Numbered from the stretch's first letter, positions 8,800 through 29,351 are shown. The stretch is 64,000 nt of DNA from Chitinophaga pinensis (GCA_945888525.1 CAMDAF010000011.1:1-64000); one strand, 5' to 3'. The notes: a model not told the origin generated them from the sequence alone. Made by a program: numbers and translations.

Positions 8800-9570
8800 A
8801 TGCCAATATTGCATAAATTTAATGAGTTTGACTTTGGTGATGGTTTTGAAACAACAAATGCCATTTTGACTTCTACTCCATATTTGCCTGAAGTATTAAT
8901 TATTGGAACATTTAACCCTGGAACGCCTAATGCTAATTTTGCAGACTTCTTTTATGGAAGAAATTTTTTCTGGCCTGCATTTAAAAATCTATTTATTCTT
9001 AACCAGCTACAATTACGAACTAGAAGAATACCTAATAGAGGAGGGTTGCCAGATACACTTAATCCCTCATTAGAAGAAATAAAAAACCTATGTACTCAAT
9101 TAAAATTATCTTTTTGTGACTTGATTAGTCAAGTTTTGTTTCACAATAATCCTCGGTATGAAATTTTAAATAACGACAATGTACTTTTCAATCAGCAAGA
9201 GTATAATTTGATTCAAGACGGAAAAAACAAAGGTGTTTTGGGACTGGAAAATTTAAATGCACTGAATCAAGTAGAATGGTCAACTAATCATATAATTTCA
9301 TATTTAGAGAATAATCCACAAATTCACTCAATTTACTTTACACGGAAACCTACCGGGATTTGGGGTGAACAATGGAACACAATTGTTCATCACGATCAAA
9401 TTTCAAATCGGTTATACACAAATATTTTTACTCCATCGGCTCAAGGAAGCCCTGTTTCTCAATCATTAGAACGCCTTTTAAACCACTGGGTACATAATGC
9501 AAATCCTAATTTTGGAAAAATTAATGAGCAATGGTTAACTAATAATGGTGTTCAACTTAATAGATTTTAA
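8800..9570 (+). CDS. Uracil-DNA-glycosylase-superfamily-like protein
   Basis: 256 residues. LIIGTFNPGTP (about 33-43) resembles the first active-site loop of UDG/MUG enzymes, FYGRNFFWPAF (about 51-61) resembles the G-x-x-x-N-x-F-W motif, and NIFTPSAQGS (about 207) resembles the second loop (PSPSPAN in MUG). These suggest a base-excising or base-binding DNA enzyme. Last gene of the defence operon; its end overlaps the end of the convergent ATPase gene by four bases. In this setting it may act on modified phage DNA, but that is inference. Fold confidence is moderate, activity unknown. Confidence 0.55.
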   Translation: MPILHKFNEFDFGDGFETTNAILTSTPYLPEVLIIGTFNPGTPNANFADFFYGRNFFWPAFKNLFILNQLQLRTRRIPNRGGLPDTLNPSLEEIKNLCTQLKLSFCDLISQVLFHNNPRYEILNNDNVLFNQQEYNLIQDGKNKGVLGLENLNALNQVEWSTNHIISYLENNPQIHSIYFTRKPTGIWGEQWNTIVHHDQISNRLYTNIFTPSAQGSPVSQSLERLLNHWVHNANPNFGKINEQWLTNNGVQLNRF

Positions 9571-11168
9571 ATCTCCATTACCCCACCTGCACTGAACCTT
9601 CCAGTTGAAGATGCCTTACCCTTCTCCACTTGTATAATCACATCCACTTCATGCGCATGTTCATTTACACCTTTGAAGTTGCCTTCTTTGGTTGTGTGAT
9701 AAATAAAGATGAAAGATGTGTCCGGGTGCATTTTGCGTAACTGGTCGATAGCATTCACATCCATTCCTGCTTTCGAAACGCTATCAATGAATACGAAGTT
9801 GAATTCTGATAAATTTTCAGGAACCCTGTCTGTGATGAATAAATTTGAGTGCTGCGCTCCCAGGCGTTGAATCTTCTCTTTGAGCGTATAACCAAATCCT
9901 TCCTCTATCGCGCAATACAATACTTTACCATGGTGCGCTGCCAGGTAATTAGCGAAGTCCAGACACATGGTTGACTTACCGGATTTAGGCAAACCATATA
10001 CCATGGCAGTAAATCCTACACTAGGATCACCGATAAGCTCACGGTATTTTCCCTGAAGTCCGATTGTTTGAAATTTCATGGAAAGTAGCTCACCGGAGCT
10101 GACAATCATTCCTTGCTCGTCATCATCGTACCCGTTTAGGCTTTTTTTTTGACTGAATAAGTCTTCCCCCAGGATTCCTAAAAGACCGTTCAATTGAGCT
10201 TTGTTGATGTTCAGAATTGCAGTTTCACCGTCAATGTATGTTTTAAGCGTTGTGTAGGCTTCATTGAGCTTTTCGGCATACTTGTCGTTGCGATTGATTT
10301 TTCCATGCTCTACAGCTTTTTTCATGCGGTTGAATAAGCGTTCTGCTTTGTCCTTCACATCTCGCTTACCATTTAATGAAACGTATGCTTTCAAGAGGGC
10401 TACCGATAACATTCCTTCCTGGCTGTGGGCAATTTCTAAATAACGTTTCAGGTTCTTGCTGTCAATTTTTATTTCAGCCATTTCTCCCATTTTCTCATAG
10501 CAAGTAATTAGCTGTTTTTGCATGAGCTCAATCTCTTTGGCATATTGAGATTCCTTGCCAATCTTCTTTTCAATAATTGCCTTCTGCAATGAGTGAATTA
10601 AGTTCAATACTTGTGCCTGGCTTTTCACTTTGCCGTGCATGGCAGCGTATCGCTTGATAAATTGCACATCGGTATCAATGTGCTCTACATCTTCCGTTTT
10701 ATATTCCGGTTCTGTTTCAGCCTCTACTACTCTCACTAGTGTCATGTCGTTATCTTCGACAAACTCCTTTGCTTCAGCAATTGAATCGAATCGCTCATTA
10801 GCGAACTTTTGGTCAGTTTTTAAGTCCCACACAATGAACTTTGTCGATCCTTTAGATGCCGGACGAATCTCAACACGAAGTCCTTTGTAGTTTTTAGGTT
10901 CAGGGACTACCGTTGGAGCTACTATTTCTGTTTTCGTTTTACTCGGTAAACTTGGAGCTTTTGTAGCCTTTGGTGTTTTGTCTAGGTACTCATCGAGCTT
11001 ATGAAAAAAGGCATCTACCACTCGTTTGATATTCTCGTTTGAGTTGTAGGCAGCCCAGTTATTTTGGCTAGCTCCTTGTACTAATTTATGACCTTTGGCA
11101 AGTGCTTCGGGAAGGTTGTCCCAATCAATGTTCTGTGCTTTTTGAAAGTAGTTGTTTGTATTTAGCAT
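9567..11168 (-). CDS. RecA-like P-loop ATPase closing the 20-kb operon
   Basis: 533 residues. An N-terminal small domain (about 92-150, a WGR- or SH3-like beta segment with IRPASKGSTKFIVWDLKT) is followed by a helical middle. A RecA-type ATPase core lies at the C-terminus with Walker A YGLPKSGKST near 391, Walker B FNFVFIDSVSKAG, and a conserved His in YHTTKEG. It resembles RadA/DnaB-type ATPases rather than terminases or FtsK-type packaging motors. It is the last gene of the operon, three bases after the helicase. Possible roles: recombination, replication, or DNA packaging. An A9 run lies inside it at 10142-10150 but does not break the frame. Confidence 0.75.
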   Translation of the reverse strand: MLNTNNYFQKAQNIDWDNLPEALAKGHKLVQGASQNNWAAYNSNENIKRVVDAFFHKLDEYLDKTPKATKAPSLPSKTKTEIVAPTVVPEPKNYKGLRVEIRPASKGSTKFIVWDLKTDQKFANERFDSIAEAKEFVEDNDMTLVRVVEAETEPEYKTEDVEHIDTDVQFIKRYAAMHGKVKSQAQVLNLIHSLQKAIIEKKIGKESQYAKEIELMQKQLITCYEKMGEMAEIKIDSKNLKRYLEIAHSQEGMLSVALLKAYVSLNGKRDVKDKAERLFNRMKKAVEHGKINRNDKYAEKLNEAYTTLKTYIDGETAILNINKAQLNGLLGILGEDLFSQKKSLNGYDDDEQGMIVSSGELLSMKFQTIGLQGKYRELIGDPSVGFTAMVYGLPKSGKSTMCLDFANYLAAHHGKVLYCAIEEGFGYTLKEKIQRLGAQHSNLFITDRVPENLSEFNFVFIDSVSKAGMDVNAIDQLRKMHPDTSFIFIYHTTKEGNFKGVNEHAHEVDVIIQVEKGKASSTGRFSAGGVMEI

Positions 11169-11171
11169 GAC

Positions 11172-14100
11172 TTAAAAGTTTATGAGTTCTAATTCGATTT
11201 CTAGTGCAAGAGCTTCAAGCTCTAGTTCACTGGTATTGATAATTTCTGTTGCTGTAGCCGGAACCAAGTTAGTTCGGTACTCTAGGAGATAATTCAGCGT
11301 TTCAAATTCCTTAGCTCTGCTTTCGGCACTTCTTCCCTCTACCTGTAAAGCGGATTTCTTAGCTTGGATTTCTTGGCGTAATTCAGCCCATTTAGGCGAA
11401 TTCTGCTCACCTTTGAAGGTTTCTGCTTGGGCTTGGATAGATTGCTTCTCAGCCTCGTATTGAGCCATTACTGGGCTTAAATCGCTATTTAGGGAATAAC
11501 CCCTAGGTTTTAGTAGTGTGCGCTCGGTTTTACGCACTTTTGAGACGTATTCCTTGAAATAGCTCACATAATACCGGTTCGGGAAATAAACCCCTAAAAC
11601 AGCATAAGAACTATCAATTTTACGACCTAGAGCAATGATGTCCTTATCCTGTCTGTCGGTGGCATTAAGTACAGCCTCGACTTCCTCTTTGAGCTCCTTG
11701 GCTTTTTTAATCTGTTTGTTTTCAAATTCACCATCTTCATTCACTTGTGGCGTTTGCTCGAAGTATTTTGATGCAAGTAAGGAGGTATGGAAATTCTTAA
11801 TCGCCTCAATAGATTTTTCCCGATACGTATTGTAATCCTTAATATCGCCTTGGACTTCCTTTAGGGTTTCAATGGCAAGCGTTACTTTTTTGTACTCGCG
11901 GTTGAGCTGCTCTTTGGCTTGGTCAAAGAACATTTGAACCAGTCTATCTACATCGGTAATAAGAGCTAGTTTAATTTCTTCAGGATCCATACTCTCTAAA
12001 TCGAGCACGTTACCTCGGTCACCACGGAACCAAATATCATTGATACGTGAGGTTTTTTCTTCAAGCTTTTGGAATACGAAAACATCCATAGAATCTTGAA
12101 CCAGTGGCATTACAATGCGCACATATTGGAACTGATTGCCCTGTCTCCAAATACGACCTTCAAGCTGACGAATATCGGTTGGATTCCATTCCGGATAACA
12201 ATTGTAAATAACCGTACCACGTTTTTGCAAATCAATTCCTTCTCGAATTGTCGCTGTTCCTATAATGATTTTCACTACTCCGTCTAGGAAAGCTTCTTTT
12301 ATTGTTTCCTTGCGAGTGTCGTTAATTTCAGAGGAGATGATTTCTACTTCATCTACTTTGGTTTTATCATACATCACGCCACGCTTGTATCCAATTTCAT
12401 TCTCCAGGTACTCTTTTATCAAAGGGAAAAACTGTTTACCTCGGTTCATGTAAATCACCTGACCGCTTGGCGTTTCACCATGAGTTTCATGCCAGTCTTT
12501 TACGGACTTTATACAATCCATTACATAGGCAATCTTTGGACTTTCTTGAACGAACTCTTTGTAATTCTCCGGTGTGCCGTTGAGCAAATACGGAGACAAA
12601 GCATTATCCAAACTATACGCCAGGGCACGGAACAAATTACCCATGTCTAATTTTCCTTGCGTTGATTTCTTGGCCATGGCTACAATGCCGTTTTGATTCT
12701 CACGCTGCTTTGGTGTCATGTTGATATAAGTGAGCACCTGTTTGCCTTGTGGTAACCTTTCTTTGGCGTTATCAAAGCTGTAAAGTAAAGGCAAGTTGAT
12801 TTTTTTCGGTCGTTGAACACCTGCTTCTTCGCCAGTCTTGTAAAGAATATGATTGTAGATAAGCTTTTGTAAAATCCTTCGATTGGTGAAGCTTTTAATC
12901 ACTTCCTTCTCCACAATTTCCTCTTTGTAGTTGGCTGTCCACTCAACAGTTGGAAGCACGAACAAATCAAAGAACGTGTCCAGGTTTACAATGCCGTTAT
13001 CACGCAGCGAATCATACGCCACAAGCGAAAGCATTGAATAAATCTCCAGTGGTGAATTACTAAATGGCGTTGCCGTTAGCAGCATCGTATTCCGTCCAAA
13101 CTTTCGCTGAATGAAACTTAAAATCAAAAAGGCTTTCTGTCCAGTTTCAGAGGTAGCGGATTGAATATTGTAACGTTTGTTTCCTTCATCATCACTTTTC
13201 ACCTGGCTAAATACATTCTTACATCGGTGCGCTTCATCCACAACTGCATAATCAAAACCTAGTACATCAATGTCGGCAATTGAGTTTTTCAAACCCACTC
13301 CGATCATCTCCCGAAACTTTTGATATTCGATTTCTTTATCTCGGCTTGATTTCTCTTTGCTTTGTCCAAGAATATTAACAAGCTCAGTAAATAGCTCATC
13401 TGAAACTGAGGTTCCAAATCCTAACCGCTTGAACCCTTCATAAGTAACCATGGTAATGGACTTTTCAGGAACGGCTTTGTTTAGGTTGATTTTATCTACA
13501 ATGTCGGTTCCCATATTGTACCAATCATTCACTGTAATTCCAGTATGAGATAGTACCCCTGAAACAAACTCTCCTGTCTTTTTATCTGTGTAACCGATGA
13601 TTTCATTCATCCACTTTTTGTAGGTCGGTTTAGGTACTACTACAAGTGGACGTTTGCATTTACCGGAATACAGATTGTGCGCTAGGTTTACAATGGCGGT
13701 CATTGTTTTACCAACGCCTACGTCAAAGGCATTGATACCCGATCCCATTGCTTCCATAAAGGCTACACCTTCACGCTGAATGTCGGTTATTTGTAGAATT
13801 CCTGATTTGAACCGAGCAGAACACTCAAAGCCAATTGGAACTTTTGAATAGTTAATATCGGATTGTCCGTTATACAAACGGTTCCAGGCATAGTTCAAAC
13901 GCAGCTGGTCTTCAAATGCCAATACCTCATGTAAGAATTTAGAGAATAGCTTTTCGCCCTCGATTCGTGCATTGGCTTTGAGTTCAGCCTTTTCTTCTTT
14001 GGTGAGTTTATCATCTCGAAGCGCACGGTTAGCGATGTAGTAATCAGCAATATCAATGGCAGAACTTTTTTCAAAATCTGTGTCGTTATTGAGGGTAAAC

Positions 14101-14843
14101 AACCACTTTACAAACAAGTGTTGCAAAGTGTATTTCGTTTCTCCATCAAAACGCACATTGAGTTTCTCCCGGTCTTTTTTGCGTTCAATCTTACCGTTAA
14201 CCTTTTTTAGTTCTTCAGCATTTTCCAAGTCCATGAACTCCTCACGAACCATGGTCACGTAAAATAAATTGGGATCAATAGCAAAATCAGAAATAGCAGT
14301 AATTATCGGGCGTTCCTTTTCATCCGGATTCTCCACAGTAAGCAGTTCGGGCTTAGCTTTTTCAATTACCTCTTTGTGATGCTCATATACCTCAATGCCA
14401 AAATGCTTTTCAATTTCTTCTTTATCGTTTTCAAGCTGCACCAATCGGTCATACATATTGCCATAGGTGTACATGGGAAATGGCATTAGCTCTCCTGCAT
14501 GATAGCACATTGCACCTTGTTTTACTAAGTCAAAGAGTTGTTCCTCCAGGGCTTTTCCTGTTCCTTTTAGGTAGTACTTCTCCCAACCGTTCATAGGCAC
14601 GCCTAGTTTTCGCTTGTACCATATCCAGGCTTTAATTTCAGGCTCCGTGATGCCTTTGTTGTATTTGGCTACTACCTCTGAAAAGGATAGCTTTTTACTG
14701 TCGGCATCGCCCAGTCCTTGAAGCTCCGTGGCTTGTTTTAAAATGCGTTCAACAATATGAGAGTTTCCTCGAACCCTTGTTGAAGTGTATGGGTTAAGTG
14801 TACCCAACTGATGTATAGTAGAAATGCCTGATAAATAGCTCAT
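11172..14843 (-). CDS. SNF2-like helicase, DarB-type anti-restriction candidate
   Basis: 1223 residues. An SF2 helicase core: DVGVGKTMTAI (motif I, near 376), VVDEAHRCKN (motif II, near 540), TATPFSNSPLEIY, then the second RecA domain with GTATIREGIDLQKRG and QLEGRIWRQGNQ (motifs V and VI, near 865-905). A long helical C-terminus follows, ending in LELEALALEIELELINF. Together with the adjacent N6-methyltransferase it resembles a split version of phage P1 DarB, which enters the host with phage DNA and blocks restriction. Start overlaps the previous stop (ATGA). Its C-terminal tail is shared with neighbouring proteins. Confidence 0.8.
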   Translation of the reverse strand: MSYLSGISTIHQLGTLNPYTSTRVRGNSHIVERILKQATELQGLGDADSKKLSFSEVVAKYNKGITEPEIKAWIWYKRKLGVPMNGWEKYYLKGTGKALEEQLFDLVKQGAMCYHAGELMPFPMYTYGNMYDRLVQLENDKEEIEKHFGIEVYEHHKEVIEKAKPELLTVENPDEKERPIITAISDFAIDPNLFYVTMVREEFMDLENAEELKKVNGKIERKKDREKLNVRFDGETKYTLQHLFVKWLFTLNNDTDFEKSSAIDIADYYIANRALRDDKLTKEEKAELKANARIEGEKLFSKFLHEVLAFEDQLRLNYAWNRLYNGQSDINYSKVPIGFECSARFKSGILQITDIQREGVAFMEAMGSGINAFDVGVGKTMTAIVNLAHNLYSGKCKRPLVVVPKPTYKKWMNEIIGYTDKKTGEFVSGVLSHTGITVNDWYNMGTDIVDKINLNKAVPEKSITMVTYEGFKRLGFGTSVSDELFTELVNILGQSKEKSSRDKEIEYQKFREMIGVGLKNSIADIDVLGFDYAVVDEAHRCKNVFSQVKSDDEGNKRYNIQSATSETGQKAFLILSFIQRKFGRNTMLLTATPFSNSPLEIYSMLSLVAYDSLRDNGIVNLDTFFDLFVLPTVEWTANYKEEIVEKEVIKSFTNRRILQKLIYNHILYKTGEEAGVQRPKKINLPLLYSFDNAKERLPQGKQVLTYINMTPKQRENQNGIVAMAKKSTQGKLDMGNLFRALAYSLDNALSPYLLNGTPENYKEFVQESPKIAYVMDCIKSVKDWHETHGETPSGQVIYMNRGKQFFPLIKEYLENEIGYKRGVMYDKTKVDEVEIISSEINDTRKETIKEAFLDGVVKIIIGTATIREGIDLQKRGTVIYNCYPEWNPTDIRQLEGRIWRQGNQFQYVRIVMPLVQDSMDVFVFQKLEEKTSRINDIWFRGDRGNVLDLESMDPEEIKLALITDVDRLVQMFFDQAKEQLNREYKKVTLAIETLKEVQGDIKDYNTYREKSIEAIKNFHTSLLASKYFEQTPQVNEDGEFENKQIKKAKELKEEVEAVLNATDRQDKDIIALGRKIDSSYAVLGVYFPNRYYVSYFKEYVSKVRKTERTLLKPRGYSLNSDLSPVMAQYEAEKQSIQAQAETFKGEQNSPKWAELRQEIQAKKSALQVEGRSAESRAKEFETLNYLLEYRTNLVPATATEIINTSELELEALALEIELELINF

Positions 14844-15490
14844 AGCGTTCTTAATTTAAGTTCGTATTCAAGTGCCAGTGCTTCGATTTCTAGCGTTGCA
14901 ATAGCTGACACACTACCTGGATTCGCACGCATAAATTCCAAAGCATGGGAATTAGCGTCTTGTATGTAGCGATAATTATTGTTCTCCAATAAAAAGTCTC
15001 CATTTTGTATTTGAAAATTGTAATCCACTCCATGAGAGAAGATTTGGATCTTGTATGTTCCGCAGCGATAGTCCACAGCGAAGTCTTCGTTTGGCTCGAA
15101 GTAGTCAATGTACCAATCACCTGGCAAATCAAAAATCAATTGCTTGTCGCCAGTTCCATGTTGAATGGTATTTACAATAAATGTTTTATCGCCCTTAATG
15201 GTGATTGGAAATTCTCTACTTGTTGTAATCACCTGCTCACCGCATACCTTTTCTGGAAAGAGAGCAAACCAGGTGTTGAATGTGCAAAGCTCCGTGAAGG
15301 TCAATGGTTCATTGGAATAGTCCTTTTGTTTGAGATAAACATTTGCTATGTCTTGCTCTTTATATCCTGCAGGCATCACTCCATTTCGCAGCAGTGCTGC
15401 ATTGAACTCTTTAGATTCAATCTTTGTGAGCATATCCCGATACATATCGATTCGGGCACGGTAATATCTTGGTTGTTCGCTATAATACAT
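14840..15490 (-). CDS. Unrecognised protein with the shared LEIEALALE tail
   Basis: If started at the ATG at 15490 (MYYSEQPRYY, an 11-base overlap with the methyltransferase end), this is a 216-residue protein. The frame is open further upstream to 15898 and that extension also looks meaningful (see findings). It has a helical start, a beta-rich middle (ITIKGDKTFIVNTIQ, IDYFEPNEDFAVDYRCGTYK), and ends in ATLEIEALALEYELKLRTL, close to the end of the helicase encoded next. I recognise no family. Its place between methyltransferase and helicase suggests an anti-restriction or particle-loaded protein. Confidence 0.6.
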   Translation of the reverse strand: MYYSEQPRYYRARIDMYRDMLTKIESKEFNAALLRNGVMPAGYKEQDIANVYLKQKDYSNEPLTFTELCTFNTWFALFPEKVCGEQVITTSREFPITIKGDKTFIVNTIQHGTGDKQLIFDLPGDWYIDYFEPNEDFAVDYRCGTYKIQIFSHGVDYNFQIQNGDFLLENNNYRYIQDANSHALEFMRANPGSVSAIATLEIEALALEYELKLRTL

Positions 15491-16238
15491 CTCTTTCGTG
15501 TTGTTTAATCCTTGTAAAGATGAATTCTGCGATATCTGGTACGATTGCGTTTCCAAGTCCTTTGATACGTTGAGCATCGTCCAGTTTTCGGGATACCCCA
15601 TCATGTATTCCAAAAGATTTGGGCAAAGTCTTTTTTTTGTTATTCCTGCATATTGTTCTGCTAGATTCCCATTTTGGTGATTGTGAAATCGTTTCCCTAA
15701 ACTCGCTGCTGAAAATGATGCCCTCGTTTGACCGTCCGAAGCCGATGGGGTAAGCCACAATCCAAAGTCTTTTGCGAAGGTGGGGTGCGCCAAATTCGGC
15801 AGCAGATATAATTGTCCATTCCGCATCATACCCGATGACGGCAAGGTCATATAAGACCTTTTCAAACCCTTTTTTTGTGAGAGCTGGGACATTTTCAATT
15901 ACAACATATTTGGGTTTAACTTCTTCAATAATTCGAGCAAACTCACTCCACAATCCACTTCGTTTACCTTTGATTCCATTTGCTTTAAATTGATGATTTG
16001 AACTCCATGTTTTGGCATTTGAAATATCTTGACATGGGAAACCACCTGATAGAACATCAACATAAGGAGGACTTGAAAGCTCAACAATGTCATCATAGAT
16101 TTTATCATGGTTGAAATTATTTCGCAGAATTGATTGACAATACAAGTCAATCTCACAGCACCAAATGTTATTAAAGCCAACATTTTGTGCTGCAAGGTCA
16201 AAACCTCCAATACCGCTGAATAAACTTCCATGTTTCAT
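15480..16238 (-). CDS. Phage-type C5-cytosine DNA methyltransferase
   Basis: 252 residues, shorter than many bacterial enzymes but complete in motifs: SLFSGIGGFDLAA (motif I, 5-17), GGFPCQDIS with catalytic Cys69, ENVPAL (115-120), GAPHLRKRLWIVAYP (motif VIII), and IKGLGNAIVPDIAEFIF (motif X). The target-recognition region is very short. Start overlaps the radC stop (TAATG). It probably modifies the element's DNA to escape host restriction. The last 400 bases overlap a second open frame. It is distinct from the methyltransferase at 7345 in the defence cassette. Confidence 0.9.
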   Translation of the reverse strand: MKHGSLFSGIGGFDLAAQNVGFNNIWCCEIDLYCQSILRNNFNHDKIYDDIVELSSPPYVDVLSGGFPCQDISNAKTWSSNHQFKANGIKGKRSGLWSEFARIIEEVKPKYVVIENVPALTKKGFEKVLYDLAVIGYDAEWTIISAAEFGAPHLRKRLWIVAYPIGFGRSNEGIIFSSEFRETISQSPKWESSRTICRNNKKKTLPKSFGIHDGVSRKLDDAQRIKGLGNAIVPDIAEFIFTRIKQHERDVL

Positions 16239-16996
16239 TAAATCATTTGATATTCAGATTCTAGTAATGGAATAACTGCCGCAGGAACCATTTGGTCATG
16301 CAGCACTTTATGAATAACAAGTTGCTCTACCTGCTCATAGCCTTGTGGTGATTGCATCATGGCATAGAGATTTGGAGCATTAGCCTCCGTCACTCTTTTG
16401 AGTTGCTTTAATATTTCATCACGCAACTTTAGTTCTATTGCATTTGGAATAGTGCTTGAACCACTTAGGGAAGATTCTGCACTTTCAGCAAACGAGTAAT
16501 ACCCTTGACTAGTAACAATGATATGGTCAAGTAATGCGATGTCAAAAAGCTTCAAAGCTGATTTGATTCTTCGGGTAAGTTGACGATCTGCCTCTGACGG
16601 TTTTAGATTTCCGCTAGGGTGATTATGCGATATAATCACTGACTTCGCAAGTGTTTTTAGCGCAACCGCAGCAACAATTTCAACATCTACCATGGTGGCA
16701 TTAATCGTACCTGTTGAATGATGATAGTAGCCAATGATTTTATTGGCTTGGTTCAAATAAATGGCAATGAAATGTTCTTGAATTTCTATACCCTTTAATA
16801 TTCGGTCTTTGAGAAAATCAAATACATCCTTTGAACTTGTAACTTGACCAAAGAAGTAAGCCTCGGTATTGAATGTAACTTCAATTTCACGAATCTTAAA
16901 CTGAGCATCTAGTTCATCTAATTGGGTTTCTAGGTCAGCATAGCTGCTTTTGTCAAAAACCATTTGAGGCGTTATGGGTGCAGTGGAATAGCTCAT
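16238..16996 (-). CDS. radC: RadC/JAB-domain protein
   Basis: 252 residues. The JAB1/MPN metal-binding motif is intact: H124 and H126 in SHNHPSGNLKPSEAD with D137, and a glutamate upstream. RadC proteins are common in mobile elements of Bacteroidota; their biochemical role is uncertain, and DNA repair has been proposed and disputed. An N-terminal extension of about 50 residues and a C-terminal extension of about 80 residues flank the domain. The end (MVPAAVIPLLESEYQMI) resembles the tails of the helicase and the 216-residue protein. Start and stop are coupled to neighbours (TAATG). Confidence 0.85.
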   Translation of the reverse strand: MSYSTAPITPQMVFDKSSYADLETQLDELDAQFKIREIEVTFNTEAYFFGQVTSSKDVFDFLKDRILKGIEIQEHFIAIYLNQANKIIGYYHHSTGTINATMVDVEIVAAVALKTLAKSVIISHNHPSGNLKPSEADRQLTRRIKSALKLFDIALLDHIIVTSQGYYSFAESAESSLSGSSTIPNAIELKLRDEILKQLKRVTEANAPNLYAMMQSPQGYEQVEQLVIHKVLHDQMVPAAVIPLLESEYQMI

Positions 16997-18428: not shown

Positions 18429-18566
18429 TTATGCTTTGAAAAATGTGATTACACGGTTTTCTTTCTGTGCTGCCGTTACTGGAGCGTTGTCGTCTTTGTC
18501 TGTGCCTTTTTTGCTCATTAACGCTAAAATTGCTAATGCAGCAGCACCAAAAAATATCTTGTTCAT
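18429..18566 (-). CDS. Small membrane protein, 45 residues
   Basis: The protein begins MNKIFFGAAALAILALM, one hydrophobic segment, then a charged tail with KKGTDKDDN. The start overlaps the stop of the upstream DUF6549 gene (ATGA), and the transglycosylase starts three bases after its stop. Tight coupling on both sides supports it as a real gene. It could be a virion membrane protein or a holin-like peptide. Confidence 0.65.
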   Translation of the reverse strand: MNKIFFGAAALAILALMSKKGTDKDDNAPVTAAQKENRVITFFKA

Positions 18567-21588: not shown

Positions 21589-22141
21589 TACTTTTTCTTT
21601 ATCCAGTTTTTATAGATGTATCGCCCCGTTAGGAAAATCACTGCGGCTGCTCCGAGTGTGAATCCTCCTGTGACGAGTAAATTTTTTTTTTAGCTATGTC
21701 CAAGATGTTCTCATAGTTTTTAATGAGTCCATTCATATAAGATGTGCGGTTATCTCCATTGCTCTCAGAGATATATGGACTATGCGCAATCTTATTTGCA
21801 TACTGTTTATAGTCTTTTGCTACAGCGTGTGCAGAAGGGTAATTTTTAGAAATTAACCGAGCAAAGTCATAAAAGCTATCCTGTGGAGATTCATAAGTTC
21901 TGAATTTGAGTTTGTATTGGTTCTGCGCTTGATACACGCCACCTTTCCAATACTCATTTTTGGAGCCACCTGCCGTTATTCCAAAGAAGTTATTGTACCT
22001 CTTTGAAAGATTGGAAGTACCCCAGGCACTCTCAAATGAACCTTGCGCCAAAATCACCAAAGGATCCATATTGAATTTCTCTCCGGCTTTTTTAGCGTAG
22101 TTATAATTATCTACCACGTATTGTTCTGTTTTGATGCTCAT
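21588..22141 (-). CDS. Glucosaminidase with a membrane anchor reached by a -1 shift
   Basis: The catalytic domain is of the FlgJ/LytG-type glucosaminidase family: ILAQGSFESAWGTS with Glu37, then NNFFGITAGG and the YNG-like YMNGLIKNY end. In the zero frame the protein ends with a polar tail at 21638. At an A10 run (21682-21691 read on the minus strand) a -1 shift instead yields NLLVTGGFTLGAAAVIFLTG and a basic end, a clear membrane anchor. The shifted frame stops at 21588-21590, overlapping the next start (TAATG). I chose the ATG at 22141 because it overlaps the previous stop (ATGA). About 184 residues when shifted. Confidence 0.75.
21682..21691 (-). promoter_or_regulatory. A10 slippage site in the glucosaminidase gene
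   Basis: Ten consecutive A on the coding strand directly precede the point where the two frames diverge. Runs this long support RNA-polymerase slippage or ribosomal -1 frameshifting. A sequencing error of one base would give the same picture. Confidence 0.5.
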
Positions 22142-23193
22142 ATTTGCTCTAATTGAATGAATCTTCTTTCTACCCATCGAATTTTATTATCAACGGTTCT
22201 GAACTGCAAGAACTCAGCTTTACCAGTATTCAGCCCCATGATGTATTGCCCCAAGATGGTATTGGGTTCAGCCATGTTGATTGCAACTAATTGATCATTT
22301 AAAATGGGTGTTCTAGACCTAGTTAAAATTCTAGGCATAGGCATTCCTTTTAATGTGAAATAATCAACAGGTTTCATCCAACCTGTGGCGTTTTTTGTTT
22401 TGGGATAGGTATCCCACATCGTTTTGTAGTAAGAGAAAATCTCCACATAGTTCGATGAGCTAGACACCCAGTAGGTGTAGCGTTTTTTGTTTTGATTTTT
22501 GTATTTGGTAGGTGCATATTGAGCACGTACTACAAATGCTACTTCAATGAATTTGACATTATTTACATCATCGAAATACTGCCTTCCCGTTGCATAACCC
22601 AAAAACTCACCAGGTTCAGTGTAGCGAATGATATTCTTTTCTGAAAACACTTCATAGAATGCTCCATGATTGGTAGCATCAGGGGAGGTTCTAAGTGCCA
22701 CTGACTTTTTACAAACCACTAATTGATTCGGTTTTGCAAATTGTACTGGAGCTGCGCCACCTCCTGAAGTATCTTTGTTTGAATTGCTGCTTACAATGGT
22801 TAGGAATTTTTGGTAGTCGCTTGTTGAAAGCTCACTCTGTAAATCATCTAGTAGATTGTTCTGATAGAGATTCTTGTATGCTTTAGAGACATTATCCAAA
22901 TTGGTAACAGTTCTTGCCGTATCTAAAACTGAGGATGTGTTGGTCGTGTCCATACTCATCATCCAACTGATCCCTGAAGGATTCATCGCAGAACGTAGAG
23001 CCATGGCTTGACGAACATCCGGATTGTCATCTGCTTTAGATTGCGCATCATTTTTATTAATGCCTGCAATCAAATTTTTGCCCAAGCGGTAAGTCAAATA
23101 AATTCCACCCACCACCAACAATCCATTGATGAGTTTGGATTGATTATTCTCAACCACTTGAATGATGCGTTCTTTAGTTCCTTGTTCTGCCAT
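22138..23193 (-). CDS. Membrane-anchored protein with an SH3-like beta region
   Basis: 351 residues. An N-terminal membrane helix (about 17-38, KLINGLLVVGGIYLTYRLG), a helical region (40-150), then a beta-rich domain (about 155-260) beginning LVVCKKSVALRTSPDA, which resembles a bacterial SH3-type wall-binding repeat, and a proline-rich C-terminus. I do not recognise a family. The stop overlaps the glucosaminidase start (ATGA), so it may position that hydrolase on peptidoglycan. A virion membrane protein is possible. Confidence 0.6.
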   Translation of the reverse strand: MAEQGTKERIIQVVENNQSKLINGLLVVGGIYLTYRLGKNLIAGINKNDAQSKADDNPDVRQAMALRSAMNPSGISWMMSMDTTNTSSVLDTARTVTNLDNVSKAYKNLYQNNLLDDLQSELSTSDYQKFLTIVSSNSNKDTSGGGAAPVQFAKPNQLVVCKKSVALRTSPDATNHGAFYEVFSEKNIIRYTEPGEFLGYATGRQYFDDVNNVKFIEVAFVVRAQYAPTKYKNQNKKRYTYWVSSSSNYVEIFSYYKTMWDTYPKTKNATGWMKPVDYFTLKGMPMPRILTRSRTPILNDQLVAINMAEPNTILGQYIMGLNTGKAEFLQFRTVDNKIRWVERRFIQLEQI

Positions 23194-23204
23194 GGTGATA
23201 TGGT

Positions 23205-23378
23205 TTACAGCATACTTTTAATTTTCAATTTCACTAGAGGCATCTCAATCTTTTTAGAAATGGTGATGAGCTCTTGTAAGGAGAAATTGTTTGCAATAGT
23301 TTGCAATGCTTTTTGTGCGTGTCGGGCTTCTTGGTCAGATGCCACCTTGACTGAAATATTTACATCTTGATTTGCCAT
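23205..23378 (-). CDS. Small protein of 57 residues
   Basis: It begins MANQDVNISVKVASDQEARH and has two short predicted helices (LQTIANNF and ELITISKKI), with a basic end. No family is recognised. It starts three bases after the coiled-coil gene and ends 12 bases before the next, in frame and without internal stops. Its composition fits a small structural or scaffold protein. Confidence 0.6.
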   Translation of the reverse strand: MANQDVNISVKVASDQEARHAQKALQTIANNFSLQELITISKKIEMPLVKLKIKSML

Positions 23379-23380
23379 GA

Positions 23381-24190
23381 TTATGCGCTTGTTGTGTTTG
23401 TATTTGCTTGTGGTTGAGTGATGAAGTGAAGGATGCGCTGCATAGTGCCACGGTCTTTTTCAATCTCCGATAGCATCAAATACATCGTACCCAATTCCTG
23501 ATTATTCATGGACTGGATGAAGGAAGTAATCATTTCCAAAATGGTCTCACGTTGAGTGTCCTTTGGTTCGCCTTTACTTTCTTCAATTCCCTTTGCCTTT
23601 TCTTCATCGGTTCCGGCAAGGAAATTCATTGCTGCCCCAACGGGCGTATCGTTAAAGAACTTAGCAAGCCCAGGCAGTGCCATTCCAATGATGTTAGAAT
23701 AGTACTCGACTTGCTTTTTGGCTTCAATCGTGTTCTGCATATCCTGAACTTGAAACTCTAAGTCCTCATTGATAGCTTGTAACTTTTGAAGCTCTGCACT
23801 CATGCGTTCTAACTCACGAGAACGTTCCATTTCAGAGAACTTGCGCTGTACGAGATCGTTTACTTCCGCTTCACCTAGTCCAGAATAACTGGATAAGGAT
23901 TTTGGAATATCTTCGTCAGCATCCGTCCATTGAAAAGTCTTTGACCATATCAAACTACCGGTTTCCAGGTCTTTGAATTCTACTCTTACCTTGTCAGGAT
24001 TTTCAGATTTATCATAGCTTCGAACCAATTCAGAAAAGTTGGCAATTGTTGCTTGTTCAATGCTATTGAGCTTTTTACCGTTGCGATAAAAGCTTGCATT
24101 AAAAGCCACATTTTCGTGTCCCTGTTTCGGGAAGGTTTTTATCATCTTTTGGCTTACCTCGATGACATGATAAATCTTTTTCTTTTTCAT
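23381..24190 (-). CDS. Coiled-coil protein of unknown function
   Basis: 269 residues. The first 110 residues are mixed alpha/beta (VIEVSQKMIKTFPKQGHENV). Residues about 118-160 form a strong coiled coil (MERSRELERMSAELQKLQ). A hydrophobic patch with YYSNIIGMALPGLAKFF (about 168-185) could touch a membrane. The C-terminus is helical and polar. It overlaps its upstream neighbour by one base (TAATG). I cannot assign a family; position among particle-like genes suggests an assembly or scaffolding role. Confidence 0.55.
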   Translation of the reverse strand: MKKKKIYHVIEVSQKMIKTFPKQGHENVAFNASFYRNGKKLNSIEQATIANFSELVRSYDKSENPDKVRVEFKDLETGSLIWSKTFQWTDADEDIPKSLSSYSGLGEAEVNDLVQRKFSEMERSRELERMSAELQKLQAINEDLEFQVQDMQNTIEAKKQVEYYSNIIGMALPGLAKFFNDTPVGAAMNFLAGTDEEKAKGIEESKGEPKDTQRETILEMITSFIQSMNNQELGTMYLMLSEIEKDRGTMQRILHFITQPQANTNTTSA

Positions 24191-24513
24191 TATTCCTTGA
24201 CGATTTGTATGAATTCAATGATTGGATAGGTGACAACCTTTTCCGGCAACTCAATTGCTATTAGCCCACTGAATTCTTCCAGGCCTTCTAGTGCGTTTTG
24301 AGCTGCTGTTATTTCTAGGCTATTGGTATCTGAAATGATTCGTGTACCAATAGGCAGAACAGAAGCATTAGTGAGTAACAAATACTCATTGTATGCTTCA
24401 ATTTCGTAGCGTTGTTTAGGGGATTTAGTCACCACAGTTTTGAAACTCTGTAACTGAATTCCTATCTCACGCTGTTTGTATTGTTGATGGATGTGATTTA
24501 GATGATCGAACAT
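24190..24513 (-). CDS. Small protein of 107 residues, unknown function
   Basis: It starts MFDHLNHIHQQYKQREIGIQ, then runs through short strands (YEIEAYNEYLLLTNASVLP, IISDTNSLEI) to VVTYPIIEFIQIVKE. It looks like a small beta-rich domain after a helix. It overlaps the upstream beta protein by 16 bases and the downstream gene by one base. In tailless phages the genes beside capsid genes often encode vertex or connector proteins, but nothing in the sequence proves this. Confidence 0.55.
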   Translation of the reverse strand: MFDHLNHIHQQYKQREIGIQLQSFKTVVTKSPKQRYEIEAYNEYLLLTNASVLPIGTRIISDTNSLEITAAQNALEGLEEFSGLIAIELPEKVVTYPIIEFIQIVKE

Positions 24514-25043
24514 AACTGGTCAGGATTTGATTGTTCTTCATATTTATCTTCGTCATCCATGGGATTTGGACATGAGCAGTCATCTGTTTCATTCTCTGCA
24601 ACAGGTATTTCCTTTTGCTCAGTTTCAGTAACAGGCTTATTGCTTTTTACTTGCGGTTTCTCTACGCTGTCAGTGCATCTGAGATATAAACTCACGATGT
24701 AAGGAGCGAATACGTTGTGTGGGCAAGTGTCCAAGTAAACACCAACTACCAATTGACCTGGTAGCAGGTTTACATCGAGCGATTGATATTCGTGTGTTTC
24801 CTCCGGTTCATAGAACGGTTGCGCTGAAACAGCAGCAACAATGGCTTCTTCTTTGAGTGAATTAAATGAGGCGGTGAACCAACCAATCTCAGGGATGAGT
24901 AAATCCGTTCCAATACCACGCACATGAACAGCCTTGAACCCGGTGCATCGTTTCAAATAAGATGGAACCTTATGTTGAAAGCGAATGATTTGCCCAGGTC
25001 TATCAACTTGTAAGCGTATGATATTGTACCGTGTTACTCCCAT
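24498..25043 (-). CDS. Beta-rich protein B, paralogue of the 132-residue protein
   Basis: 181 residues. Residues 1-130 are strand-rich. The opening IIRLQVDRPGQIIRFQHKV and the segment PYIVSLYLRCT (about 121-131) match the positions of RVRVTQPGEAIRFN and PYEVKIYLWLT in the neighbour at 25052. The last 45 residues are an acidic, glutamate-rich tail with a CSCPNP cluster. The pair could be single-jelly-roll capsid subunits, as in phages with two major capsid proteins. The relation between the two is seen in sequence; the capsid role is inferred. Confidence 0.6.
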   Translation of the reverse strand: MGVTRYNIIRLQVDRPGQIIRFQHKVPSYLKRCTGFKAVHVRGIGTDLLIPEIGWFTASFNSLKEEAIVAAVSAQPFYEPEETHEYQSLDVNLLPGQLVVGVYLDTCPHNVFAPYIVSLYLRCTDSVEKPQVKSNKPVTETEQKEIPVAENETDDCSCPNPMDDEDKYEEQSNPDQLCSII

Positions 25044-25051: not shown

Positions 25052-25450
25052 TTATTTTTCATTGGTGAGCCACAGATATATTTTCACTTCGTAGGGGTAG
25101 CCATAAGCTCCGTAGCCGTTTTCTGAGACTACTGGAACTTGACCATCTGTAAAACGTCCTTCCACTGTACTTCCGGCAGCATCCAGTTGCTCCTCAAAAA
25201 AGAAAAACTTCTTATTGGGAGCAACCTGGTTGCCACTGGTTAACAGTTTCACTTCATGCACATCCTCGAATACCTCCTGATTGTTCACTTTGAGCCCCAA
25301 CAAGCAACCAGGTACGAAGCGTTCTTCAGGCACAGAAACATAAATGCCTCTGATGCGTGCGTATTGCTTATCGGTTTGTGCATTGAATCGAATTGCCTCA
25401 CCCGGTTGAGTGACACGAACTCGAATCTGTTGAAACTTGTGGTTTTTCAT
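25052..25450 (-). CDS. Beta-rich protein A, candidate jelly-roll capsid subunit
   Basis: 132 residues, almost all short strands and loops, with no helix or membrane segment. Shared blocks with the next gene are I-R-x-x-V-x-x-P-G-x-x-I-R-F near the start, a R-x-x-G-x-x-x-x-V block near 33-41, and P-Y-x-V-x-x-Y-L-x-x-T at the end. The size fits a single beta-barrel. Adjacent to a 234-residue protein that is also strand-rich. No match to a named family can be made by eye. Confidence 0.6.
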   Translation of the reverse strand: MKNHKFQQIRVRVTQPGEAIRFNAQTDKQYARIRGIYVSVPEERFVPGCLLGLKVNNQEVFEDVHEVKLLTSGNQVAPNKKFFFFEEQLDAAGSTVEGRFTDGQVPVVSENGYGAYGYPYEVKIYLWLTNEK

Positions 25451-25471
25451 GGTGAATTTCTCTTAATAGGA

Positions 25472-26176
25472 TTACGCTTTGATTACAGCAGTACCACGAA
25501 GGATTGCCTTCAGGTATGAATGGTCAGGAGCATTTGCGGCCCACTCGATATTGAACTCGATGGATTGTTGGTCACGAATGATTTTTGGATTGTCCAATAC
25601 CCACAAGCCTTTGAATGTATCCTTACCAGTGGTTTGGAATACTTCGCAAGAAGTGTTTGGGATCAATACGGTTCCGTTGGCTTTGAACTCGAATTCACCG
25701 TCACGAACATAGTCCGGAACAACATCGTAGTTCACTGTGCCTGGAGAGTCATTGCTGTCTCCAACACCACCTAACAATTGGATACCGTACAAAAGGAAGT
25801 AGTTTCCTTTTTCTAATTTGCCACTTGAAATGTTGCTAGTGCCAACAACTTTGTTGTCGTCATCTTTGAACATTTTAATGACTTTGGATCCAGTGATTGT
25901 TTTAACCACATAGTAAGCGGTATCAACAGCCTGCAAACTTTGGTTTGCTAATCCTTGTTGAATTTCTTTTGGAAGCATAGCAATACGCTTCTCAAACTCT
26001 GCACGAGAACGAGAGCCAGTGGCATTCGTTGCTACACGTGTTTGAGTTTGCATTTTGCGGAACAACTTCTTTTTTTCGTTGGGGCCGCTGAGGTCAAGTG
26101 CTTGCAAGAAATCGTCTTCTGACATTGCACCTAGCAAGTTGTACTCGCTGTTTTCGATTTGTCCGAGAGTTAACAT
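25472..26176 (-). CDS. Candidate major particle protein, 234 residues
   Basis: The N-terminal third (1-95) is helical and polar, with a basic patch (KKKLFRKMQTQTRVA). The rest is strand-rich with hydrophobic/aromatic alternation (YVVKTITGSKVIKMF, NYFLLYGIQLLGGV, QSIEFNIEWAANAPDH, LKAILRGTAV). An N-terminal arm followed by a beta barrel is typical of capsid proteins. It has no catalytic motif. It stands in the middle of the particle-like genes, with longer intergenic gaps (21 and 31 bases) on both sides that leave room for a strong own ribosome site. Major-capsid status is a guess. Confidence 0.55.
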   Translation of the reverse strand: MLTLGQIENSEYNLLGAMSEDDFLQALDLSGPNEKKKLFRKMQTQTRVATNATGSRSRAEFEKRIAMLPKEIQQGLANQSLQAVDTAYYVVKTITGSKVIKMFKDDDNKVVGTSNISSGKLEKGNYFLLYGIQLLGGVGDSNDSPGTVNYDVVPDYVRDGEFEFKANGTVLIPNTSCEVFQTTGKDTFKGLWVLDNPKIIRDQQSIEFNIEWAANAPDHSYLKAILRGTAVIKA

Positions 26177-26207
26177 GATACTGATGATTTATTTGATTTG
26201 TGAATTA

Positions 26208-26732
26208 TTAAATGATTTCGATGTAGGCTAAATCTTCCTCAGCAACGCCTTCTACCATGCGAGATGGTGTAGCGATATCTTCGGGATTAAAAGCTGTTGG
26301 TGATGAGAGAGCAGGCAAGTCAGGATTGTAGCGTTCTACTGATAAATTCATTGGCTCACGGTACACAGTTGGTTCACCCAAGCCGTCTACACCGTTGAAG
26401 CTGAAATCAGCCAGACCTGCTAACAAGTCCTTTTTCAAAAACACTTTCACACCGGAAAGAAGTCCTGATGCACCAACACCTGTTGCAAGCATTTTCATGT
26501 TCGGGTCTTTTAGCATCAAGTTTCCGGCAGTACCAACGCCCAAAAGGACAATAGGTCGTGCCAGTGCTTTCGCATTGAATCCAGTTGCAGTTGCATCTAC
26601 ATTCAACACCTTATCAATCATTTTTCCGCCCACCGAGCCGATAACAACACCGCCAGTGAGCATAGCCAAGGTTTTGATTTCGTCCATCACAGCTTGGCTA
26701 CTGATTTTGGTTTTTTTTGTTCTTGTTGCCAT
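26208..26732 (-). CDS. Glycine-rich membrane protein, 174 residues
   Basis: Three hydrophobic, glycine-rich segments: LAMLTGGVVIGSVGGKMI (about 22-39), PIVLLGVGTAGNLML (about 61-75) and MLATGVGASGLLSG (about 81-94). The rest is a polar, proline-rich C-terminus ending DLAYIEII. It starts with a basic stretch (MATRTKKTKIS). Glycine-zipper membrane proteins are frequent in internal-membrane phages. No family is recognised. Confidence 0.6.
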   Translation of the reverse strand: MATRTKKTKISSQAVMDEIKTLAMLTGGVVIGSVGGKMIDKVLNVDATATGFNAKALARPIVLLGVGTAGNLMLKDPNMKMLATGVGASGLLSGVKVFLKKDLLAGLADFSFNGVDGLGEPTVYREPMNLSVERYNPDLPALSSPTAFNPEDIATPSRMVEGVAEEDLAYIEII

Positions 26733-26750
26733 GGTTTGCGTATTTATTGA

Positions 26751-28610
26751 TTATAAAAGTTTCATTACTTTAGGAGGCATACTTTTGTTGGTATGCGTTG
26801 ATTTTGCAGTGCTCTTGCGTTTTGCAGGAGCAGTCTTTGATTTGGTTGTTGTGGTTTTTCTTCGTGTCTTGTAACCGGATAATCCACTAGCTTTTTTCTT
26901 TGGCTTCACCATTTGATAAATACCAAAGGCAAGTAAACCGCCACCGATAACAGCAGGAACCGGATTCGCTTTGATAAAGCTCATGATTCCACCACTACCG
27001 CTTGATGAAGATGCAGGAGCATCTGTTGTAGTTGGTGCAGTAGCACTCGCATCAGCCGTTGTACTTGCTGTTCGAAGCGCAACAGCAGAGGATGCTGATG
27101 GGTCAGCTTCACTTGCTTGAATTTCAGCAGCAGCGGCAGCAGCTCCAGGATCGGCTGTAACTTGACTGGTAAGAGTATTCATATCCACGTTTTCGTTCTT
27201 GCCGATTAGTCCTGATTCTTTCAAGATTTTAATCGTTGCAATAATTACAGGAGTTGCAGCAGCGATAACGGTTGCAGAAGCAGGGTCACCCAAGTAGCCC
27301 AACATTTGGTCTTCAACTATTCCGCTCAGATTTCCGGCACGACCTTTCAAAATGGCATTTTTGAGTGCATCACGACTACCTTGAAGCTTGTCAGCGAATA
27401 GTTTTTCTACTTTGCTTAATGCGTTTTTACTCTTTTGCCATGTGGCAGCATTGACACCTTTGGCAGCAGCTTGTTGTTGCGTACCATAAGCCCATTTTAA
27501 CTTAGATGCCATTTTACCCAAGTTGAGCTTCATAGCAAGTAAGAATCCTCCACGAGCTGCAATACTTAATGGATTGTACTTTACAACCGCCTTTACAGCA
27601 ACTTTGGCTGCATCACCAACTTTCTGTCCAACCGTTTTTACCGTGTTCTTTACATTGGTAAAAAAGCCTTTGATGTTGATACCGCTTAGTGCTAACTCAT
27701 CCGGGTCGTAATCAATACCATTCATGGCAGTTACACCATTGCGCAAATTGAGTTGAGATTCATTCTTTGAAAGAATGTCTAATGCTTCGTCACGCTTGTC
27801 GGTGTACCAATACTGAATCGCGTAGTCCAACATTTTAAGCAGTGCCTGTGGATCATCCACGGTCGATACCATGTTTGGATTTTGTGCCACTGCATTGCGA
27901 GTTGCTACGATATTTTGATAGAGTTTATCCAAGTCTGATTGATTGGTGACTGCACCTAAACCAATACCGGAAAGTGATGTTGCCATTACTGCATCATAGT
28001 GGTCATTGCCTGACACACCACTGAGCACGGCTACGTTTATGCCTTTTAAGTTCATGTTATAATCCATTTTATCGGTGTATTTTTTCTCATAGTTGAATTC
28101 AGAAACCACTCCGTCAATCACACAGTAGTTCGTTCCGTCCATTGGGACAATCACGTACACGTGTTGCCATGAATCTTGGCTGTACTTGGTGATTCTGAAC
28201 TTGTGAGGAATTTGCAGATTGGTTAAGATGCTTGAAGCGAAAATGCTCATGCAGTCACAGTCAACCCCAGTGGCTCTTTCAGCCCAACTTCTTGCAGGTC
28301 TGCGAAGCTGCTCTAGACCTCGTTTATCCAACTTGTATTGGATATAGGAGTACATGAATTCCCAAATGGCTTTGCAAGTATCAATGGTGGAAGACCGCCT
28401 GAGTAATGGAGCGATTCGCTTGGTGTCGTCAAGGTATTTCCAAACGACTTTCTCCATTAACTCAACCGTATCGGTTACCTCACCATCATTAATGATGACA
28501 CGGTCACGCTCATCAGGTGGTGGGAAATACGGATTATAGCGGCTTCCATCTTTGATGCTGCGATAACCACTGGTTACAGTTTTGCTTGGTATGTGAGATA
28601 GTGCCTGCAT
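26751..28610 (-). CDS. Transglutaminase-fold protein with a C-terminal membrane helix
   Basis: 619 residues. A transglutaminase-like cysteine-protease domain occupies about 70-175: Cys118 or Cys120 in GVDCDCMSIF, His150 in SWQHVYVIV and Asp166 in CVIDGVV form the triad. Residues 180-430 are helical, 450-540 alanine/threonine-rich, then a membrane helix AVIGGGLLAFGIYQMV (about 554-569) and a very basic tail. Transglutaminase-fold proteins occur as structural proteins in several Bacteroidota phages. It may process or crosslink particle proteins. Its start abuts the upstream stop. Confidence 0.75.
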   Translation of the reverse strand: MQALSHIPSKTVTSGYRSIKDGSRYNPYFPPPDERDRVIINDGEVTDTVELMEKVVWKYLDDTKRIAPLLRRSSTIDTCKAIWEFMYSYIQYKLDKRGLEQLRRPARSWAERATGVDCDCMSIFASSILTNLQIPHKFRITKYSQDSWQHVYVIVPMDGTNYCVIDGVVSEFNYEKKYTDKMDYNMNLKGINVAVLSGVSGNDHYDAVMATSLSGIGLGAVTNQSDLDKLYQNIVATRNAVAQNPNMVSTVDDPQALLKMLDYAIQYWYTDKRDEALDILSKNESQLNLRNGVTAMNGIDYDPDELALSGINIKGFFTNVKNTVKTVGQKVGDAAKVAVKAVVKYNPLSIAARGGFLLAMKLNLGKMASKLKWAYGTQQQAAAKGVNAATWQKSKNALSKVEKLFADKLQGSRDALKNAILKGRAGNLSGIVEDQMLGYLGDPASATVIAAATPVIIATIKILKESGLIGKNENVDMNTLTSQVTADPGAAAAAAEIQASEADPSASSAVALRTASTTADASATAPTTTDAPASSSSGSGGIMSFIKANPVPAVIGGGLLAFGIYQMVKPKKKASGLSGYKTRRKTTTTKSKTAPAKRKSTAKSTHTNKSMPPKVMKLL

Positions 28611-29110
28611 TAAATCAATTTTTCAGAGGGCGACTGATAAAACAGTCCGTTTACATAGGTGGTGAAATACATTTCCATAGGCACACCCAACTGAGCAACC
28701 AGGTTCTTTTTATTACCCGATTTCCAGGCAGTTATTACAGCAGGTATTTTTGTGACGATATTCTTGATAAGTCCGGCAAGAATTGACCAGGACAATTCAA
28801 GCTCAATCGTATCAATCTTGGTTACGGCAAGTGGCTGAATGACGATTTCTTTATTCTCGGCATCAGATTGCGTTAAGAACTTGTTTTTAGATGTTAGTGT
28901 TACCACTGGTTTTGTGATGCGGATGCTATCACGAGAAGGATTATTGACTTCAACTTCTGTTCTGAAGGTCAAACCACCTAAGTTGATTGAGTGAATGCGA
29001 GGGTTGACCATCTTCATGGTAGAAACGTCAGATACATTCTGCATTTTTAGCAGTCTGACCATACCATAAACAAGGCCTGCACCTATCGCTATACCCAATA
29101 CTTTATTCAT
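28610..29110 (-). CDS. LEA14-like beta protein with an N-terminal membrane helix
   Basis: 166 residues. A membrane helix (about 4-20, VLGIAIGAGLVYGMVRLL) is followed by a beta-sandwich region with INLGGLTFRTEVEVNNPS and KPVVTLTSK, the N-P-S pattern seen in LEA14/WHy domains. The C-terminus has a second mildly hydrophobic part (SILAGLIKNIV). It overlaps the first gene of the operon by eight bases. Probably a membrane-anchored particle or envelope protein. Confidence 0.6.
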   Translation of the reverse strand: MNKVLGIAIGAGLVYGMVRLLKMQNVSDVSTMKMVNPRIHSINLGGLTFRTEVEVNNPSRDSIRITKPVVTLTSKNKFLTQSDAENKEIVIQPLAVTKIDTIELELSWSILAGLIKNIVTKIPAVITAWKSGNKKNLVAQLGVPMEMYFTTYVNGLFYQSPSEKLI

Positions 29111-29351
29111 CGTCTCCGAAGTTTTCTTTGAAATACTTATTGAGTTTTGCGGAAATGTTGTCGAGAGCTTTTTTTACCACATAACCGGCAGCAGCGGATG
29201 CAGCAGCATATAAAACAACAGTAGTGAGACCAGGAAGGGTAATCGCCATTAAAAGAGGCTTTGCTGTTACAGCTTTTCCTACGCCTCCAACGACACCTGA
29301 AACGGTGGTAAATATCGAAGTGTGTGAGTGATGTGGCATGAAGTCTTGCAT
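29103..29351 (-). CDS. First gene of the 20-kb operon, small membrane protein
   Basis: 82 residues from the ATG at 29351 (MQDFMPHHSH); another ATG at 29339 and a TTG at 29363 are possible. A hydrophobic, glycine/alanine-rich stretch (LLMAITLPGLTTVVLYAAASAAAGYVV in part, about 37-62) ends in a charged amphipathic helix. Typical of small virion membrane proteins. It opens the operon downstream of the inverted repeat at 29421-29455, with TCTCTTTG at 29372-29379 as a one-mismatch -7 box. Confidence 0.6.
   Translation of the reverse strand: MQDFMPHHSHTSIFTTVSGVVGGVGKAVTAKPLLMAITLPGLTTVVLYAAASAAAGYVVKKALDNISAKLNKYFKENFGDDE

Follow-up and report, generated by a model that had tools for sequence, protein, structure and literature searches.

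A probable integrated tailless virus of Chitinophaga pinensis, distantly related to Salisaeta icosahedral phage 1

We have analysed a 64,000-nucleotide stretch of DNA from Chitinophaga pinensis (GCA_945888525.1, CAMDAF010000011.1:1-64000; 'the window') and conclude that positions ~150-40735 very probably hold an integrated, tailless, temperate virus that is related to Salisaeta icosahedral phage 1 (SSIP-1) and carries cargo genes. The element has an arm with a primase-helicase and helix-turn-helix (HTH) proteins at one end and a tyrosine integrase at a tRNA-Ser gene at the other. Between them lies a single tightly packed operon of virion, lysis and DNA-related genes (9567-29351, minus strand), which would be the morphogenesis and lysis module of the virus. 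The particle appears to be icosahedral, built of single-jelly-roll proteins and distantly related to that of SSIP-1. This reading is carried by the conservation of the operon, the integrase at tRNA-Ser, the boundaries of related proviruses and profile homology to three SSIP-1 proteins. An earlier note on the window had proposed an integrated non-tailed virus with cargo, and the integrase at tRNA-Ser or tmRNA and the direct repeats in relatives support it; the coordinates that it gave for the operon stood, whereas its limits for the element did not, as the element extends on both sides.

The likeness to SSIP-1, which the earlier note had named, proved to be a real profile match. Hidden Markov models (HMMs) of the window family, built without SSIP-1 sequences, linked the genes designated g03, g23 and g18 to SSIP-1 gp34 (E=6e-17), gp40 (E=1e-17) and gp43 (E=4e-16), respectively, all three of which are annotated as structural proteins. 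When family profiles were compared with 20 SSIP-1 proteins by hhalign, g03-gp34 and g23-gp40 scored 97.7% and 98.2%, and other pairs scored far lower except g02-gp34 (67%), which we discounted as probably due to a fused sequence inside the g02 alignment; a weak match of g09 to gp29 was likewise set aside as coiled coil. In the aligned part of g03 and gp34 the residues of a Cys-His-Asp triad (Asp-Cys, His, Asp) are kept in position, and both proteins have hydrophobic segments towards the C-terminus, while g23 and gp40 belong to the same PHROG, 6891. With gp46 and gp40 as queries, only SSIP-1 itself was matched. SSIP-1 has been placed among the vertical single-beta-barrel viruses with two major capsid proteins (MCPs) (PMC4958249, PMC6356626), its capsid type has been listed as 'single jelly roll?' (PMC6260650) and its genome is said to share 'hardly ... 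any similarity' with others (it 'hardly shares any similarity'; PMC6356626). Like the window family, it combines a transglutaminase-fold virion protein bearing a C-terminal hydrophobic segment (gp34) with an ATPase (gp40) and an N6-methylase protein (gp43); it also has an annotated integrase, a 43.8 kb genome and a capsid that the literature infers to be of single-beta-barrel type with two MCPs. Unlike SSIP-1, the window family is integrated, carries defence or metal cargo, encodes methylase and helicase as separate genes and has a DUF6549/SLT/glucosaminidase lysis set, and its capsid candidates are without significant sequence match to SSIP-1.

The best major-capsid candidate is g05 (25472-26176; all operon genes are on the minus strand). 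AlphaFold2, run with alignments of family members, modelled it as a helical N-terminal arm followed by a C-terminal beta sandwich (predicted local distance difference test score, pLDDT, 84.7), and modelled g06 (25052-25450) as a sandwich of eight strands (pLDDT 90.7). Foldseek searches with g05 returned viral jelly-roll capsid proteins first (EhV-201, SGIV and PBCV-1, then SPV1, SH1 and the FLiP penton) at probabilities of up to 1.00, and against BFVD they returned capsid proteins together with an unnamed protein, I1ZBH9, whose length of 211 aa equals that of SSIP-1 gp46, with which it is possibly identical. These models support a jelly-roll-like fold for g05 and g06, and we infer that both may serve as major capsid proteins. 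The fold check proposed in the earlier note thus gave confident beta sandwiches, with viral jelly-roll matches for the product at 25472 and weaker ones for that at 25052. Its pair of related beta-rich proteins is also real: g07 (24498-25043), a further candidate capsid protein, is a paralogue of g06, their HMM match lists merging into about two members per locus.

The operon comprises more than 20 genes, mostly abutting or overlapping as first described, from g01 at ~29351 to g23 at 9567. At its head are a small membrane protein conserved in relatives (g01, 29103-29351) and a membrane-anchored protein that is LEA/WHy-like by eye and has no Pfam match (g02, 28610-29110). They are followed by the gp34 homologue g03 (26751-28610), in which a transglutaminase fold had been predicted and which has hydrophobic segments, a weak match to the transglutaminase DUF553 profile and a Cys-His-Asp triad that is invariant across relatives. 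Beyond it lie a putative membrane-associated virion protein (g04, 26208-26732; 51 loci), the three capsid candidates, a small conserved protein (g08, 24190-24513) and two conserved putative virion proteins (g10 and the coiled-coil protein g09, 22138-24190). Apart from the weak transglutaminase match, this g01-g10 block had only sub-threshold matches (coiled-coil, annexin or similar) in Pfam and PHROGs; none of the virion genes tested received a name from NCBIfam, and a PDB sequence search with two family alignments (A1 and A3) yielded no meaningful match. At least five proteins with membrane segments had been expected, and strong hydrophobic segments do occur in g01, g02, g03, g15 and g16, although two of these five are lysis genes; g04 is borderline and g10 weaker.

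Conservation of this operon is extensive. Strong homologues of g03 (619 aa) were found in seven other Bacteroidia genomes among 395 Bacteroidota genomes searched (frames of 331-661 aa, twice in two of the seven), and when the g03 alignment was used to scan 84,980 genomes, 269 relatives were recovered, of which 80 were kept; essentially all of the 269 are from Bacteroidota. Iterated HMM searches recovered g02 in 85 loci, g03 in 96, g05 in 80, g06/g07 in 61, g08 in 56, g09 in 72 and g10 in 67, with the gene order of the g01-g10 block largely constant. In every virion gene compared with close loci, the proportion of nonsynonymous differences (pN) was far below that of synonymous differences (pS), for example 0.045 versus 0.717 in g05, and as pS is near saturation we use only the contrast between the two; the virion genes are, on this comparison of sequences, under purifying selection. 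The operon, which the earlier note had suggested looking for without cargo in other Bacteroidota, is present with differing cargo in many of them, and carriers include cultured strains of Marinilabilia, Pontibacter and Hymenobacter, among them Marinilabilia salmonicolor JCM 21150 with L097/L158 and Pontibacter pamirensis with L094. A more divergent branch (loci L021-L026, L038 and L039) has a shorter g05 (~190-210 aa) and, where seen, g02 elsewhere, and one family member (L105) lies on a contig that was probably misbinned as Candidatus Gracilibacteria. In virus collections the family is scarce: 5 contigs were confirmed among 2.9 million in IMG/VR, against 269 loci that nearly identical patterns found in genomes, tblastn against 50,697 phage records found nothing for g03 and at most chance-level matches for g05, and single-protein g05 and g03 scans of viral contigs found no match.

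Integration is evident from the position of the integrase at tRNA-Ser or tmRNA together with direct repeats in relatives. The tyrosine integrase of the window (39199-40452, minus strand; PF00589, Arm-DNA-bind_5) sits on the 3' side of its target, tRNA-Ser(gct) (40718-40807, minus strand), at the 3' end of which the similarity of the closest sister genomes to the window ends. Integrase homologues lie upstream of the operon in ~25 loci, many of them adjoining tRNA-Ser or tmRNA. In four relatives (G492, G493, G496 and G497) the 3' end of the tRNA or tmRNA is repeated over 15-16 bp at the far side, past the primase, bounding elements of 44.8, 51.6, 47.4 and 51.0 kb, respectively; integrase, attL and attR are all present in these four, and the window has the integrase and the tRNA. 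Gene order in the window matches that of the repeat-bounded relatives. Its putative far attachment site (85-170), an imperfect copy of 40640-40735 (hairpin plus CTCCGC; 73% over 126 bp) that adjoins the start of contig C11, is ~1.75 kb from the primase versus 1.69 kb in G492 and G493; no exact core repeat was found at this site in the window. The arm at this end encodes, on the plus strand, an excisionase-like HTH_17 protein (1580-1882; PF12728) with homologues positioned likewise in L156 and L157, a Toprim primase-helicase for replication (1903-3978; PF13155, PF13481) with homologues in relatives, and an HTH_3 repressor-like regulator (4211-4525; PF01381). The G129 element instead has a serine recombinase, the end of which overlaps a marC-like gene.

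The remainder of the operon encodes the fibre, muralytic, lysis and DNA-related functions that had been proposed, most of them now with profile matches. These are a glucosaminidase (g11, PF01832, 1e-20; with g12 at 21166-22177), a fibre (g13, 20231-21148; phrog_32345, 6.5e-37), a spike or fibre with a Hint domain (g14, 19360-20208; PF07591, phrog_38766), a DUF6549 spanin-like protein and a small membrane protein with hydrophobic segments, presumably for lysis (g16 and g15, 18563-19352; PF20186, 7e-48), and an SLT transglycosylase (g17, 17754-18425; PF01464). They are followed by an N6 DNA methylase akin to the gp43 methylase domain of SSIP-1 (g18, 16996-17754), a RadC protein (g19, 16238-16996; a 44% identical copy is present in the G129 element), a C5 cytosine methyltransferase (15480-16238), g21 (14840-15490), an SNF2/DarB-like helicase (g22, 11172-14843; PF00176) and the 533-aa RecA/KaiC-like ATPase g23 (9567-11168; phrog_6891), a candidate packaging motor. 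The cytosine methyltransferase is an insertion in the window member, most relatives lacking it at this place. An open reading frame at 14840-15898 consists of the 216-aa gene g21 (~14840-15490) plus an N-terminal extension that overlaps dcm; in the segment 15480-15898, each of two overlapping frames is similar to the C-terminal part of a cytosine methyltransferase, the first ending GLGNAIVPDIAEFIF and the second matching phrog_1008, which may reflect a frameshift or dual coding. The Hint (intein-type) domain of g14 is shared, judging by length, with L049, and most relatives have a version of ~95 aa. Relative to shuffles, the g02, g03, g04, g09, g10 and g22 families are ~2-6 fold enriched in the motif [LIM]xGxG, with no enrichment in g06-g08 or the lysis genes. 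Such LxGxG motifs could possibly be maturation cleavage sites, as for the adenovirus protease; they lie partly within glycine-rich hydrophobic segments and are few in SSIP-1.

Two unrelated, adjacent proteins, g21 (216 aa, 216-218 aa in relatives; LEIEALALEYELKL) and g22 (LELEALALEIELELINF), end alike in (L/I)E(L/M/I)EALALE(L/I/Y)EL. Of the related elements read that extend to these genes, nearly all have this tag, L155 being without it, and a similar one is found on the G129 helicase and on a methylase in L101. A tag HMM gave 15-28 bits on tagged sequences, from which it was itself built, whereas shuffled C-termini, in five sets of 2,584, reached 8.5 at most. In a Marinilabilia element (L158:10828-14703 and 16228-18276), a strawberry-notch helicase and an unrelated LPD1 protein share a different tag, ALELEMEMxFEF, a pair that emerged from 15,762 within-locus pairs compared without a tag model. 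Since the methylase protein of SSIP-1 is annotated as structural, the simplest reading is a loading signal for proteins that accompany the DNA, and we infer that the tag is a candidate virion-loading signal.

These features suggest a life cycle in which the Toprim primase-helicase would replicate the genome once excised, and a shell would be built from g05 and the g06/g07 pair. Proteins g01-g04 and g10 would be membrane or inner proteins of a particle that may have an internal membrane, of which the hydrophobic segments are the sole sign seen; g03, its Cys-His-Asp triad intact, would be a structural or processing enzyme. DNA packaging may be powered by g23, host binding mediated by g13/g14, peptidoglycan cut by g11/g17 and cell lysis assisted by g15/g16. 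The helicase g22, g21, RadC and the methylase would protect and process the DNA, and g21 and g22 may enter the particle via their common tag.

Several findings weigh against this interpretation. No particle of the kind that the virus presumably makes has been observed. The far attachment repeat of the window itself is imperfect. No packaging ATPase of the FtsK/HerA type, which is common to most Varidnaviria (PMC8328091), was matched in the element in the Pfam and PHROGs scans; the P-loops seen are RecA/KaiC-like, SNF2, Toprim/AAA_25 and McrB only, and the candidate motor g23 is of the first kind. The Foldseek TM-scores of g05 are low (~0.2-0.45) and furin is matched too, g06 has no PDB match below E 0.018 and weak Foldseek matches, and end-to-end hhalign of g05 with gp45/gp46, taken as the candidate SSIP-1 MCPs, gave 66% with a divergent subset and 2.8% with the full family. 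Finally, g23-like ATPases also occur in tailed phages of Bacteroidota, so that the gp40 match is not exclusive; as transglutaminase and methylase folds are common as well, we place weight on the combination of matches and on gp34.

That no particle has been seen, together with the large share of cargo (~13 of 40 kb), would also fit a particle that was domesticated from such a virus and does not replicate, akin to a gene transfer agent or a bacteriocin, and purifying selection on the virion genes is predicted by both readings alike. We regard domestication as very unlikely, as integrase, primase and regulators are kept and similar elements with attachment repeats are found in several genera, at tRNA/tmRNA sites that differ. 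A tailed prophage, or the remnant of one, whose head and tail genes escape recognition might account for the ATPase, for glucosaminidase and SLT enzymes, which are common among tailed phages, and for g13, which resembles jumbo-phage tail fibres (52% identity to that of PhiPA3 over 44% of the query by tblastn), a likeness as if tailed and tailless phages had exchanged receptor-binding parts. It is nonetheless highly improbable: consistent with the absences reported earlier, terminase, portal, HK97 capsid, tail-tube, sheath and tape-measure genes had no match in Pfam or PHROGs, the largest g01-g10 protein is the 619-aa transglutaminase-domain protein rather than a tape measure, g03 is unmatched among the phage records and g05/g06 model as beta sandwiches. 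Least probable of all is an integrative conjugative element or other non-viral island with an envelope-spanning operon for the secretion or transfer of DNA. The integrase at a tRNA, the cargo and the membrane proteins would suit it, as would the RadC and the DarB-like helicase, whose kinds conjugative elements also carry; against it stand a lysis cassette, homologues of SSIP-1 virion proteins and Pfam and PHROGs scans that detected no relaxase, coupling protein or type IV secretion gene, nor any injection system.

The integrated tailless virus preferred here can also be compared with established groups. With the Helvetiavirae (SH1, P23-77, HHIV-2; Sphaerolipoviridae and relatives) it shares at least two small single-jelly-roll capsid candidates, g05 and g06 being predicted beta sandwiches with a putative MCP role, and related proviruses of that group likewise adjoin tRNA and integrase genes (PMC5332951). 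No sequence similarity to them was found, and we do not file the element there because it has no FtsK/HerA packaging ATPase. Tectiliviricetes and FLiP-type viruses (PRD1, PM2, FLiP) are similarly tailless, with membrane proteins, muralytic enzymes and some integrated forms, and differ in that the conserved capsid candidates of the window (132 and 234 aa) model with strands for one barrel each, not the double jelly roll of Bamfordvirae MCPs, and in their FtsK-type ATPase. The scans gave none of the terminase, portal, HK97 MCP and tail genes of Caudoviricetes.

Cargo occupies two places in the window. Copper and multicopper-oxidase genes (29571-38942, plus strand) fill the slot between operon and integrase. 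In relatives the contents of this slot differ: L041 has Hachiman there, L049 has Avs4 and L053 has Zorya-like genes with a DarT-like domain, and candidate defence genes are present in L043 (PDC-M16) and L064 (DpdF/PDC-S41-type). The second place, beside the replication arm (4522-8454, plus strand), has restriction genes of the McrBC type (AAA_5, McrBC PF10117) together with a C5 cytosine methyltransferase (MTase_II).

Similar layouts, often with anti-phage defence genes, are present in many other Bacteroidota and are apparently undescribed; we found no description of such proviruses in the open-access literature, a scope outside which the original SSIP-1 paper and most subscription papers fall. 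The chances are about even that they form a large lineage, so far undescribed, of temperate viruses that lack tails and are spread through this phylum, with single-jelly-roll shells, a RecA-type rather than FtsK/HerA motor, interchangeable defence cargo that protects the host and DNA-processing proteins loaded by a tag. Virus collections seem largely to miss these proviruses, given the few IMG/VR contigs against the many genome loci. SSIP-1, so far an orphan, gains hundreds of distant relatives, and because some of them reside in cultured strains, capsid assembly, packaging and lysogeny of the SSIP-1 group become testable. Finally, these proviruses carry defence systems between bacteria.

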